Assembly (NCBI GenBank): GCA_902598825.1
Contig: CACKDD010000004.1
Coordinates: 1 to 64,000, forward strand
From: an uncultured Pelagibacteraceae bacterium
GTDB lineage: Bacteria > Pseudomonadota > Alphaproteobacteria > Pelagibacterales > Pelagibacteraceae
DNA: 64,000 nucleotides
Direction: 5' to 3'
Each line of letters begins with the position of its first letter. Positions within the stretch are counted from its first letter, which is position 1. Under the pieces are notes generated by a model. That model made no database searches. It worked only from the letters and a program-made list of their open reading frames with translations, and had not been told where the DNA came from. Positions 2,104-45,971 of the stretch are shown here, one piece after another. A program made the translations under genes and the position numbers.

Positions 2104-2472
2104 TTATTTTCTATCCTTTATATGGTTTTGACCATCTTTTATAAAGGTCTTAAGTTTAAATAATTCATTTGGTTCTATTTCGTCAATACACCCTACATTA
2201 ATACCAAAAGTATTTGGGTCACTTCTCCTAAGGTTATGTGTGTGAATTCCACACTCTGAACAAAAATGATGCTTGGCTACTTTAGTGTTAAATTGATAAG
2301 TCTTAATTTTGCTCTCCCCCTTAATAATCTTCAAATCATTTTTGTTAATTGTTATAATCATTGTTCCTTTTCTTTTGCACATCGAACAATTACATCTCAT
2401 CAATTCATCAATATTTTTTTTTAAATTAACTTGAATTTCTACTTCCCCACAATGGCATGTTAATTTTTTCAT
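2104..2472 (-). CDS. GFA family protein, copy 2 (tandem paralog)
   Basis: CHCGEVEIQ..CNCSMCKRKG...HFCSECGIHTHN; clear similarity to the adjacent ORF. Confidence 0.8.
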   Translation of the reverse strand: MKKLTCHCGEVEIQVNLKKNIDELMRCNCSMCKRKGTMIITINKNDLKIIKGESKIKTYQFNTKVAKHHFCSECGIHTHNLRRSDPNTFGINVGCIDEIEPNELFKLKTFIKDGQNHIKDRK

Positions 2473-2589
2473 ATTTGTATTAAATTAAACTATCCTTGGT
2501 TAAAGTTATCCACAACCATACAAAATGTAGTTTTAATGTTCACGTTTTGATTCACTTTTGATTCAGTTACAGACTCAAAATACAACCTC

Positions 2590-2618
2590 TTGCGTACATT
2601 ATATAAATGCGCTATAAA
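2590..2618 (+). promoter_or_regulatory. Candidate sigma70 promoter of umuDC: TTGCGT-N17-TATAAA
   Basis: -35 at 2590-2595, -10 at 2613-2618, 17-bp spacer. Confidence 0.5.
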
Positions 2619-2621
2619 TAA

Positions 2622-2636
2622 GAACAAAACAAGAAC
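2622..2636 (+). promoter_or_regulatory. Candidate LexA/SOS box GAAC-N7-GAAC
   Basis: GAACAAAACAAGAAC matches the alphaproteobacterial LexA consensus GTTC-N7-GTTC in reverse orientation; just downstream of the -10 and abutting the umuD ATG. Confidence 0.7.
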
Positions 2637-3032
2637 ATGAAACTAACTATTCCTTATTATCTGCATAAAGCTGGTGCTGGTTTCCCATCACCTGCAACCG
2701 ATTATATCGAAGAAGATATCGATCTGAACATGCATTTAATCAAAAATGTTCCAGCTACTTTCATCATCAGAGTTCAGGGTAAATCCATGGTAGATGTTGG
2801 AATTAATGATGGGGATTTATTAGTTGTCGACAAAAGTTTAAAACCAAAAAACTTTTCAACCGTTATTGCCAATGTTCATGATGAGCTTGTAGTTAAAACT
2901 TTAGTTCAAGAAAGAGATAAAAAATTCCTATCCTCAGGCTCTAAAGATTTTTCTAATAGAATTTTAATCAATGAAGAAGAAGATGTCTTTATTTGGGGGG
3001 TTGTGACGTATGTCATCCATTCAACGTACTAA
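2637..3032 (+). CDS. umuD: UmuD-like S24 peptidase
   Basis: GFPSPATDYIEEDIDLN, catalytic GKSMVD and VVKTL; followed by overlapping umuC. Confidence 0.9.
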   Translation: MKLTIPYYLHKAGAGFPSPATDYIEEDIDLNMHLIKNVPATFIIRVQGKSMVDVGINDGDLLVVDKSLKPKNFSTVIANVHDELVVKTLVQERDKKFLSSGSKDFSNRILINEEEDVFIWGVVTYVIHSTY

Positions 3033-4287
3033 AAAAATAGGCCTGGTTGATTGTAACTCTTTCTATGTTTCATGTGAAAGATTATTCAATCCAAGAATAA
3101 GAAAAAAACCTGTAGTTGTACTGTCAAATAATGATGGTTGTATTATTTCTAGATCCAATGAAGCAAAAGCTTTGGGGATTAAAATGGGTGAACCTTATTT
3201 TAAAGCAAAAGATATTATTGTTAAAAATAAAGTTGAGGTTTTTTCGTCAAATTATTCTTTATATGGAGATTTATCTAGAAGAGTAATGAGAACGCTTAAG
3301 AGGTTTAATACTGAAATAGAAGTATATTCCATTGATGAAGCGTTTATAGATTTATCCAATTTTCCAGACTCTGAGGTTGAAAAAGTTGGCAGAGAAATTA
3401 GAGAAACAGTTTTGCAATGGACTGGTATTCCAACGAGTATCGGTATTGCTAAAACTAAAACTTTAAGCAAAGTTGCAAATCATATTGCAAAGAAAAAACA
3501 ATCGGGTGTAACGAGTTTAATTGGAATAGAAAACTTAGACCCTATTTTAGAAAAAGTTGAAATCAATGATATATGGGGTGTTGGCAGGCAACTGACAAAA
3601 TTCTATCAAAAAAATGGTATCTATAACGCTAAACAACTTAAGAATAAATCTAATACCTGGATCAAAAAATGCTCTAATGTTTTAAGCTCTAGAACCGCAA
3701 TGGAACTTAGAGGAATACCTTGTATCAATTTAGAAACTACTCAAACTAAAAGAAAGAGCTGTGTAGTTTCAAGATCATTTGGTAAAAGAATTGAAAAATT
3801 TCAAGAACTAAAAGAAGCAGTTGCCAACTATTGTTTAAATGCATCTGAAAAAATTAGATCAGAATCTTTAGTTGCAAAAGCAATTACAGTTTTCGTTCGA
3901 ACCAGTCCTTTTCAAAGAGACTATGGTTATTATTCAAATGCTAAAACAATTGACTTTCCAATTGCAACAAACAATAGCATTGAAACTGTTAAGACTGCAA
4001 TTATGATACTAGAAAGCATATTCAAAAATGGTTATCGTTATCAAAAAGCAGGTGTAATGTTGACAGGACTACGTAATGACGATGGCAGAAAAAATTTATT
4101 TTCTTCTGAAAAAGATGAAAAAATAAAAAGTTTAATGCGGTCAATAGATAACACTAATTATAGATATGGTAGATCCACTTTGAGTCTTGCAAGTGCTGGG
4201 GTTCATAAAAAATGGAATATGCGAAGACAATATTCTTCTAAAATAGATACGGCTGATTTTTATTGTCTACCAACGATAAGAGCTTAA
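3010..4287 (+). CDS. umuC: DNA polymerase V subunit UmuC-like (Y-family)
   Basis: GLVDCNSFYVSCERLFNP, VLSNNDGCIISRSNEAKALGI, YSIDEAFIDL motifs. Confidence 0.92.
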   Translation: MSSIQRTKKIGLVDCNSFYVSCERLFNPRIRKKPVVVLSNNDGCIISRSNEAKALGIKMGEPYFKAKDIIVKNKVEVFSSNYSLYGDLSRRVMRTLKRFNTEIEVYSIDEAFIDLSNFPDSEVEKVGREIRETVLQWTGIPTSIGIAKTKTLSKVANHIAKKKQSGVTSLIGIENLDPILEKVEINDIWGVGRQLTKFYQKNGIYNAKQLKNKSNTWIKKCSNVLSSRTAMELRGIPCINLETTQTKRKSCVVSRSFGKRIEKFQELKEAVANYCLNASEKIRSESLVAKAITVFVRTSPFQRDYGYYSNAKTIDFPIATNNSIETVKTAIMILESIFKNGYRYQKAGVMLTGLRNDDGRKNLFSSEKDEKIKSLMRSIDNTNYRYGRSTLSLASAGVHKKWNMRRQYSSKIDTADFYCLPTIRA

Positions 4288-43526: not shown

Positions 43527-44984
43527 TTAATTTTTTTGTCTTCTTAAAAATGCTGGAATCTCAAGATCATCATCTTCTTGATCTTCTTCGGATGATCCCA
43601 ATAAATCATCTGAATTTTTTGCTTCAATATCTGAATTAAATAAATCTGGCTCATCTATATCAACACCAAATTCTTTTAAATCTCCTGAAACTTCTTCTTT
43701 CTCTGATGATCTTATTGCTTCTTCTGAAAAAGAAACTTCATTCTCCTTAGATGTGTCCTCAACTATGCTTTCAACCTCTTGATTTTTGAGTAATTCTTCA
43801 TGATACTGATTGTTAACTTCATCTATAGTTTCATTTTGATTTTCAGAGACAACCTCATTTTCCAGTTTCAAAGCATTAGCTCCATGTGTAGCTATATTTG
43901 AAGCCGTATTAGAAAAAGAAAATGATGCTGTGTGATTATTTGAACCAAAATCAGAATATCCAGTATTACGATTTTGTATTCTATGCACCATATTAACAAC
44001 TGACTTAGACTCAGGTTGTTGATTGTCTAATGATGTGGCAACTATTGAAACTCTTATTTTGCCTGCAAGAGCTTCATCAGTTATTGCACCTATAATAACT
44101 TCTGCATCAGCTTCAACTTCTGATCTAATTTTATTAACTACTTCATCAACTTCAAAAAGTTTAAGATCTTTTCCGCCAGTAATATTAACTAATAAACCTT
44201 TTGCTCCTTTAAGCGTATAGTCATCTATTAAAGGATTACTAATTGCCATTTCTGTAGCTTGCATAGCTCTACCTTCGCCTTCGGCTTCACCTGTACCCAT
44301 CATAGCTTTACCCATTGATGCCATAACAGTTTCAACATCAGCAAAATCTAGATTAATTATTCCAGGTCTAACCATTAAGTCAGTTACACTTTGTACTCCA
44401 TGCATCAAAACATTATTTGAAAGATTAAATGACTCCTCAAATGTAGTTTGTTCATTTGCTATTTTAAACAAATTTTGATTTGGTATTACAATTATTGTAT
44501 CTACATGTTTTCTTAATTCCTCAAGACCAATTTGGGCCCTTCTCATTCTTGAAGGCCCTTCGTATAAGAAAGGAAGTGTTACTACACCTACAGTGAGTAT
44601 ATTTAATTCTTTTGCTGCTCTAGCTATAACATGTGCTGCACCAGTTCCTGTTCCACCACCCATTCCTGCAGCAATGAAAACCATATTTGCGCCTTGCAAA
44701 ATATTTACAATTTCATTTAAAGATTCATCAGCTGCAGCCTGTCCAATATCAAGCTTAGCGCCTGCACCTAATCCTTTCGTCAAATTTAAACCAATTTGAA
44801 TTTTCGATTTTGCTTTACTATGTTTTAAATCTTGAGCATCAGTATTTACAGCTATAAATTCAACTCCCTGCATTCCGTTATCAATCATCTCATTAATTGC
44901 GTTCCCTCCTGCACCTCCAATTCCCATTACTAGAAGTCTTGGTTGCAACTCTTTTATCTCTGGTGCTCTTAAGTTAATTGTCAT
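43527..44984 (-). CDS. ftsZ: Cell division GTPase FtsZ
   Basis: GIGGAGGNAINEMI, GGGTGTGAA tubulin signature; C-terminal peptide DLEIPAFLRRQKN. Confidence 0.98.
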   Translation of the reverse strand: MTINLRAPEIKELQPRLLVMGIGGAGGNAINEMIDNGMQGVEFIAVNTDAQDLKHSKAKSKIQIGLNLTKGLGAGAKLDIGQAAADESLNEIVNILQGANMVFIAAGMGGGTGTGAAHVIARAAKELNILTVGVVTLPFLYEGPSRMRRAQIGLEELRKHVDTIIVIPNQNLFKIANEQTTFEESFNLSNNVLMHGVQSVTDLMVRPGIINLDFADVETVMASMGKAMMGTGEAEGEGRAMQATEMAISNPLIDDYTLKGAKGLLVNITGGKDLKLFEVDEVVNKIRSEVEADAEVIIGAITDEALAGKIRVSIVATSLDNQQPESKSVVNMVHRIQNRNTGYSDFGSNNHTASFSFSNTASNIATHGANALKLENEVVSENQNETIDEVNNQYHEELLKNQEVESIVEDTSKENEVSFSEEAIRSSEKEEVSGDLKEFGVDIDEPDLFNSDIEAKNSDDLLGSSEEDQEDDDLEIPAFLRRQKN

Positions 44985-44998
44985 TTTATTATCCCCCG

Positions 44999-45454
44999 TT
45001 ATTTGTTAAGTTGAAGCTCCCACTTAAGGCTAGCACGATTTAAATTTGCTTTTTTCTTTGCGTTAACCTTAAATTTTTCAAAGGCTGCTGGTTCCCAAAT
45101 TTGAAAGGTTTTTCCTTGGCCAACAAACAACATGCTATTTTTTATTTTTGCATGTTTTAATAATTTTGTAGTGAGTGAAATTCTTCCTTCACTATCAAAC
45201 TGTAAATTAATACTTTCAGATAATATTGAAGTTGCAAAATAATCTCTTTTTTCATCAAAAGGATTAAGTGTGTCAATTGTATTCGAAATTTTTTCTATTC
45301 TATCTTGTGGCCATGCTTCTATTGATTGGTGATTGAAAGATGGGTAACAAATTACTCCATTATACCCTAGGTTGGATAAATAAGACCTATAACTTGCAGG
45401 CACTGATACTCTTCCTTTCTTGTCTAATTTGTTTTCGTAGCTTGCTAAAAACAT
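44999..45454 (-). CDS. mraZ: Transcriptional regulator MraZ
   Basis: FLASYENKLDKKGRVSVPASYR; duplicated SpoVT/AbrB-like domain. Confidence 0.94.
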   Translation of the reverse strand: MFLASYENKLDKKGRVSVPASYRSYLSNLGYNGVICYPSFNHQSIEAWPQDRIEKISNTIDTLNPFDEKRDYFATSILSESINLQFDSEGRISLTTKLLKHAKIKNSMLFVGQGKTFQIWEPAAFEKFKVNAKKKANLNRASLKWELQLNK

Positions 45455-45482: not shown

Positions 45483-45506
45483 TGGGAATATATGGGATAT
45501 TATGGG
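45483..45506. promoter_or_regulatory. Candidate MraZ box: three TGGG repeats with 10-bp period
   Basis: TGGG at 45483, 45493 and 45503. Confidence 0.7.
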
Positions 45507-45525
45507 TTTTTGATAATAGAGTCAA
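45497..45525 (-). promoter_or_regulatory. Candidate sigma70 promoter of mraZ: TTGACT-N17-TAATAT
   Basis: -35 at 45520-45525, -10 at 45497-45502, 17-bp spacer; -10 lies inside the MraZ box. Confidence 0.65.
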
Positions 45526-45612
45526 TACCCTGTGTTCTGTATTATTATAAGTAATTTGAGCAAAAAGAAGTGAATCAAAACATGAACATTTGTTTTAATT
45601 TTTAGAAAAGAT

Positions 45613-45971
45613 TTGCCAGATAAACTATAAGCCGGGTTCTGTCATTTAAACTTATCATTTGTCTAGGCTTAAGATCACTCTTAAACTCAAGCAACTAACC
45701 CTGATGACTAGCCAAGGACGGCTTTTAGTTTTTCAACAGTGTCATCTCTACTTAGTCTTGCTCCCAGTGGGGTTTTCCAGCGTTCATTGTTACCAATAGA
45801 ACCGGTGTGCTCTTACCACACCTTTTCACCCTTGCCATGTTATGGCGGTTTATTTTCTGTGGCACTATCCCTAGGGTTTCCCCTGCCAGGCGTTATCTGG
45901 CACTGTGTCCTTGTAGAGCCCGGACTTTCCTCTTTAAATTAATTTAAAGCGACAAGTCATTTATCTGGCAA
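45613..45971 (-). ncRNA. rnpB: RNase P RNA
   Basis: Reverse strand has GAGGAAAGTCCGGGCTC, GGGTGAAAAGGTGTGGTAAGAGCACACCGG, ACAGAACCCGGCTTAT; P1 helix GCCAGATAAA/TTTATCTGGC. Confidence 0.95.

Follow-up and report, generated by a model that had tools for sequence, protein, structure and literature searches.

What is the 23-nt sequence that stands upstream of both umuD and mraZ in this Pelagibacteraceae genome, and what might read it? An earlier note on the window (the whole stretch of DNA that was analysed, 64 kb) proposed that one regulator, possibly LexA, acts at both sites and could link DNA damage to ftsZ expression. The pair itself is real: both copies are found exactly where they were reported, and they are identical at 22 of 23 positions.

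2535..2557, plus strand: 23-mer copy A, which reads AATGTTCACGTTTTGATTCACTT; the first module of the RF01827 element, kept family-wide
45568..45590, minus strand: 23-mer copy B, which reads AATGTTCATGTTTTGATTCACTT (minus strand, 45590-45568); in the rnpB-mraZ intergenic region, a conserved island in the alignment

As claimed, both copies are sense-oriented relative to the downstream gene (umuD on the plus strand, mraZ on the minus strand). Copy A is 79 nt upstream of umuD, within a match to the Rfam family RF01827 on the opposite (minus) strand, and copy B is flanked by the rnpB 3' end and mraZ. The earlier note had missed both the RF01827 overlap and the rnpB-mraZ position.

No third match with up to three mismatches is present in the window (expected number 0, from 100 shuffles), and the 20-base core of the 23-mer matches these two sites alone in the host assembly (883 kb, 73% complete). 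Of 146 genomes from across the Pelagibacteraceae, 111 have the 23-mer (with up to three mismatches); the reversed control has almost no matches. RF01827 was detected in 110 of the 146, and in none of the genomes listed from another family of the same order. Most close relatives have two copies, one in RF01827 and one between rnpB and mraZ; where the mraZ copy has been lost, the RF01827 copy is usually kept (allowing for incomplete assemblies). At mraZ, the 23-mer occurs in groups g1, g3, g8, g10, g11, and g13, of which g1 is the host genus, Pelagibacter, and includes HTCC1062. A dispersed repeat, which the earlier note had named as a reason to abandon its proposal, was rejected: there are few copies per genome, typically two and sometimes one or three. 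These results support the view that the 23-mer is a real conserved sequence common to both loci.

RF01827 as RNA or DNA

The umuD copy is part of a dense cluster of sites:

2104..2472, minus strand: GFA-family gene (PF04828), on the far side of the RF01827 element from umuD
2498..2587, minus strand: match to RF01827 ("SAR11_0636 sRNA"), 113 bits against a gathering score of 67; read here as a DNA element
2506..2514, plus strand: perfect DnaA box TTATCCACA in the RF01827 element, conserved in most RF01827 copies
2549..2553: GANTC site 1 (GATTC), within the 23-mer
2560..2564: GANTC site 2 (GATTC), 11 bp further
2572..2576: GANTC site 3 (GACTC), 12 bp further
2590..2618, plus strand: candidate umuD promoter, TTGCGT-N17-TATAAA, from sequence inspection
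2622..2636, minus strand: LexA/SOS box GTTCTTGTTTTGTTC, between the umuD -10 and the ATG; GAACAAAAYAAGAAC is conserved in most umuD contexts
2637..3032, plus strand: umuD-like peptidase S24 (PF00717, E = 6e-22)
3010..4287, plus strand: umuC-like polymerase (IMS; PF00817, E = 1e-41)

The SOS-type site that had been reported next to umuD is thus present, at 2622-2636.

Meyer et al. 2009 proposed that RF01827 is a separately transcribed RNA, with no P2 pair supported by covariation, and noted its neighbor SAR11_0635, annotated as S24-peptidase-like or as an SOS repressor (PMC2704228). In HTCC1062, our match at 622437 falls inside the gap between SAR11_0635 and SAR11_0636 (622388-622552; gap coordinates from PMC2704228). 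For the Rfam structure, 40 distinct sequences gave one doubly changed cell in 920, a covariation score of 0.089 (versus 0.088 for shuffled data), and an RNAalifold covariation term of -0.14; the support for the structure comes from conservation only. Given the absence of covariation in these 40 sequences, we rejected a structured RNA. What is kept is a pattern of DNA sites: a DnaA box, followed by TGTTC and by three sites for CcrM methylation (GANTC), spaced at roughly one helical turn. In other words, there are four TTC/CTC modules at a pitch of 12, 11, and 12 bp, and three of them are GANTC. The third module may read GACTC, GATTC, or GAATC, and every one of these is GANTC. The invariant blocks are the DnaA box and the GAATCAAAA/GAGTC-type repeats. 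In alignment A1, columns 17 and 22, which are not paired in the Rfam structure, tend to swap jointly (C17/T22 and T17/C22) between GANTC modules two and three.

If RF01827 were a trans-acting small RNA, its 23-nt segment could pair with the rnpB-mraZ transcript. This would fit the Rfam family and the proposal of Meyer et al. (PMC2704228), the complementarity of the two window copies (with one G-U pair), and a -10-like TATAAT on the minus strand upstream of the element. Besides the lack of covariation, however, the pairing is not maintained: in the 21 genomes that have both copies, pairing is broken by 48 differences and 8 others are wobble-compatible, which does not improve on shuffled partners (49.4 +/- 1.4). 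Furthermore, the candidate mraZ promoter is 3' of copy B, so an mRNA that started there would not contain the segment. We rejected this pairing as largely refuted, and we consider a trans-acting small RNA to be highly improbable. We read RF01827 as a DNA element, probably not an RNA, because covariation is absent, the DNA-site blocks are invariant, and the pairing with mraZ is not maintained.

On the minus strand at 2590-2636 of the window, the LexA box is overlapped by a promoter-like arrangement (TTGTTC-N18-TATAAT), from which transcription would run into RF01827. In the umuD context, this arrangement could render a transcript SOS-controlled.

In other genera, RF01827-like copies adjoin genes for GFA, TenA-like, MFS, GMC, dxs, rhomboid, or typA (gene names were assigned by inspection and by similarity), and some lie between convergent genes without umuD. 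Because of these other neighbors, RF01827 is not a umuD-specific operator. Extra RF01827-like copies are found in other SAR11 genera (L126-L129 and L139-L145), and DnaA-like boxes flank some of them.

In E. coli, DARS and datA are DnaA-binding loci. RF01827 might similarly be a locus that controls replication, either oriC or a DnaA-binding site like DARS and datA, with the mraZ copy borrowing one of the proteins that bind there. The conserved TTATCCACA beside phased GANTC sites would suit this role, as would an additional DnaA-like box at the far side of some copies (L126, L141, and L043), the copies in convergent intergenic regions, and the number of copies per genome (one to three). However, RF01827 is off the GC-skew minimum in HTCC1062 and G063 (from sampled stretches, which are noisy), there is no cluster of TTATCCACA there, and copy B at mraZ lacks a DnaA box. 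The skew and the unclustered boxes led us to reject oriC, and a replication-control locus of any of these kinds seems very unlikely.

The mraZ-ftsZ promoter and candidate readers of GANTC

Copy B lies upstream of a candidate promoter for the division genes:

43527..44984, minus strand: ftsZ (PF00091 and PF12327), directly 3' of mraZ
44999..45454, minus strand: mraZ (PF02381, E = 1e-21)
45483..45506, minus strand: three MraZ-type boxes (CCCATAATATCCCATATATTCCCA) at a 10-bp pitch
45497..45525, minus strand: candidate mraZ promoter, TTGACT-N17-TAATAT, from sequence and conservation
45519..45523: GANTC overlapping the mraZ -35 (TTGACTC, minus strand), co-lost with the 23-mer
45612..45968, minus strand: rnpB (RNase P RNA class A; RF00010, 290 bits)

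Since mraZ directly precedes ftsZ, the mraZ promoter is likely also the ftsZ promoter. We aligned this region from 85 loci, which are the window and 84 relatives (a few genomes may have been counted twice); relatives were taken as the top 80 by similarity. The earlier note had asked if the mraZ copy is conserved upstream of orthologous mraZ genes. It is, and it is tied to the promoter: the 23-mer forms a conserved island, ATGTTC-NNN-TTTTGANTC, in a variable spacer, about 44 nt upstream of the -35 (mostly 41-48 nt). To count conservation, we used 58 loci from close relatives, chosen solely by GACTC at the mraZ -35. Every base of ATGTTC and of TTTTGA-TC is at least 97% conserved in these loci, and free variation in TTTTGANTC is confined to the N of GANTC (T in 41 loci, C in 16, and A in one). 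Exactly two GANTC sites are present between rnpB and mraZ in 54 of the 58 loci (one of the two being the -35 GACTC that was used for grouping), versus zero in 20 of the 27 remaining loci.

The 23-mer and the -35 GACTC are gained and lost jointly (co-occurrence counts 55/5/2/23, Fisher p = 7e-14). Two loci, L057 and L110, have GACTC at the -35 and lack the strict 23-mer motif, and these are near-misses. Lineages that lost the 23-mer mostly read TTGACA or TTGACG at the -35. In a quick tree of mraZ-ftsZ (77 rows, 12 supported independent pairs), about eight independent pairs were concordant and none were discordant in most draws (median p = 0.008, range 0.008-0.07). Since the tree has 14 and 12 changes as well as these concordant pairs, we rejected common descent alone as the cause of the co-loss.

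The best explanation that we have is that the 23-mer is a DNA operator of the GANTC/CcrM-GcrA type, and we hold it tentatively, as slightly more apt to be wrong than right. The operator would be double-stranded, ATGTTC-NNN-TTTTGANTC, with a CcrM methylation site (GANTC) in its right half. At mraZ, it would act jointly with the second GANTC, about 44 bp downstream over the -35 hexamer (TTGACTC). The pair would tie mraZ-ftsZ transcription to methylation state and hence to replication timing, and its likely readers would be CcrM and the sigma70 cofactor GcrA. At umuD, the operator module would be the first of the four TTC/CTC repeats (11-12 bp pitch), beside the DnaA box. We infer that GANTC is methylated and that CcrM and GcrA read these sites, and also the direction of the effect and a role for the TGTTC half.

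The genes for such a system are near-universal in the family. CcrM-type proteins with a RAMA domain, mostly of about 360 amino acids, are encoded by 17 of 17 genomes, including the host (G000:C4:87717). GcrA is present in 16 of the 17; there was no match in the host assembly, which is 73% complete. HTCC1062 has about half as many GANTC sites as expected (504 versus 1043), and such depletion was reported in alphaproteobacteria with CcrM, of which SAR11 has a homolog (PMC3973325). In Caulobacter, ftsZ is directly activated by GANTC methylation (PMC3973325), and according to work cited in PMC7987155, methylated promoters use GcrA as a sigma70 cofactor. Pelagibacter was reported to lack ctrA and to belong to a cluster that retains CcrM and GcrA (PMC2877005).

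Several observations go against this explanation. The first module of RF01827 almost invariably reads GATTC, and therefore the constraint there exceeds GANTC alone. The preference of GcrA in Caulobacter (YGAKTCG) predicts neither the TGTTC half nor a position some 44 bp upstream of a -35. The SAR11 sites do not match this extended motif, as they read TTGAYTCA or TTGACTCT, and the Caulobacter consensus may not be that of SAR11. The -35 GACTC was met in Pelagibacter only: in the other genera with the 23-mer (g3, g8, g10, g11, and g13), the mraZ -35 is TTGACG, TTGACC, or TTGACA. A shift to TTGACA could compensate for the loss of any activator. Also, some RF01827 copies lie between convergent genes, which is odd for a promoter operator.

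Another transcription factor, perhaps winged-helix-like, might bind the TTCA direct repeats at their 11-12 bp pitch, in which case GANTC would be incidental. The four regularly spaced modules in RF01827 and the fully conserved TGTTC half, which is not GANTC, suggest such a factor, and a change from TTGACT to TTGACA at the -35 fits the loss of an activator. Nevertheless, the one position that varies freely coincides with the N of GANTC, the -35 also changes to TTGACG, which is not promoter compensation, and the rnpB-mraZ region tends to have two GANTC sites or none. We consider this factor rather unlikely. The 11-bp repeats also brought to mind CtrA or another OmpR-type regulator, which we rejected given the reported lack of ctrA in Pelagibacter (PMC2877005). 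An IHF site was rejected by inspection only: a TTGATW half is present, the second half has mismatches, and at mraZ the site is broken by the T-to-C change.

LexA and the mraZ slot in sister genera

We took the alphaproteobacterial LexA box to be GTTC-N7-GTTC, an 11-bp direct repeat. The boxes of SAR11 lexA genes (GTTCTACAAAAGTTC in the host and GTTCTACAAGTGTTC in HTCC1062) have this form, as does the one at umuD (GTTCTTGTTTTGTTC). In HTCC1062, recA (L230, near 625.8 kb) has a one-mismatch SOS box, GTACACATTTTGTTC, or GTAC-N7-GTTC; judging from this site, SAR11 LexA may tolerate GTAC half-sites.

By this definition, LexA as the regulator at the 23-mer is not supported in the host genus. The 23-mer has GTTC-N8-ATTC, with a pitch of 12 bp rather than 11, and its right half at about 60 mraZ sites is GANTC, not GTTC. 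It is absent from both lexA and recA (the recA promoter was read in HTCC1062), an absence that the earlier note had itself taken to weigh against its proposal. No SOS box with up to one mismatch is present in the rnpB-mraZ region of the window.

Other genera use LexA-like sites at the same place. Perfect SOS boxes (GTTC-N7-GTTC) lie between rnpB and mraZ in nine genomes from g5, g7, g9, and g12 (L244, L251, L252, L254, L255, and L258-L261), which suggests that LexA controls the division cluster in these groups. Variants of the GTTC-N7-GTAC type are found there in six genomes (g4 and one genome from g12). Neither the box nor the variant ever occurs together with the 23-mer at mraZ. The slot is used by one kind of site or the other. 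Perhaps LexA can bind a degenerate site in Pelagibacter; alternatively, control was rewired between the SOS and cell-cycle inputs. Thus, the proposed link between SOS and division is not supported for LexA at the 23-mer in Pelagibacter and is plausible in the sister genera with SOS boxes at mraZ.

Could the 23-mer still be a derived LexA operator, GTTC-N7-G(A)TTC, by which LexA would control umuD and mraZ-ftsZ? It resembles GTTCTTGTTTTGTTC with one inserted A, all 17 genomes have lexA, the recA site hints that GTAC is tolerated, and LexA boxes are known from the E. coli dcw cluster (PMC3265435). The exclusive use of the slot in sister genera is also in keeping with this. Against it are the pitch, the right half, and the absence from lexA and recA, as described above. 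In addition, a separate perfect SOS box coexists with the 23-mer at umuD, the perfect boxes that sister genera have at mraZ point the other way, and loss of the 23-mer tracks the GANTC at the -35. We judge a derived LexA operator to be unlikely.

Possible role and comparison with known systems

RF01827 and its satellite at mraZ might form a family-wide control element of SAR11, with a DnaA box and phased CcrM sites, that ties replication state and repair capacity to mraZ-ftsZ transcription in a lineage without CtrA, and whose slot at mraZ is taken by LexA in sister genera. This broader picture is possible, if doubtful. SAR11, which rank among Earth's most abundant cells, have few regulators and no reported CtrA, and the element would bear on how they couple replication, damage, and division. 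The promoter architecture at mraZ-ftsZ, with two GANTC sites that are gained or lost jointly, is specific and testable, an SOS box is found in the corresponding slot of sister genera, and a catalogued Rfam small RNA is argued to be a DNA regulatory element.

The closest parallel is the CcrM/GcrA system of Caulobacter, with GANTC in the promoters of ftsZ, mipZ, and ctrA. Both systems have GANTC in a division-gene promoter, genes for CcrM and GcrA, and the ftsZ cluster as a target. In contrast to Caulobacter, SAR11 has two fixed GANTC sites, one of them inside the longer ATGTTC-NNN-TTTTGANTC motif, and the target is mraZ-ftsZ; furthermore, Pelagibacter lacks CtrA, and for SAR11 we infer GANTC methylation. 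By sequence, the umuD copy is a full member of the SAR11_0636 sRNA family of Meyer et al. 2009 (113 bits), but covariation and context point to a DNA element instead of a structured RNA. Like DARS and datA of E. coli, RF01827 is a short conserved intergenic locus with a DnaA box; unlike them, it has a GANTC cluster, no demonstrated IHF site, and a linked motif at a promoter. The 23-mer shares a GTTC half-site and a TTTTG core with the alphaproteobacterial LexA/SOS box, which has the corresponding position at mraZ in sister genera, but it differs in its 12-bp pitch, its ATTC or ACTC right half, and its absence from lexA and recA. Finally, the dcw cluster of E. coli is controlled by MraZ, PdhR, and LexA. 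SAR11 also has MraZ-type boxes in the mraZ promoter, and the LexA boxes at dcw parallel those of the sister genera, whereas in Pelagibacter proper, a GANTC motif replaces the SOS box and mraZ is directly before ftsZ.
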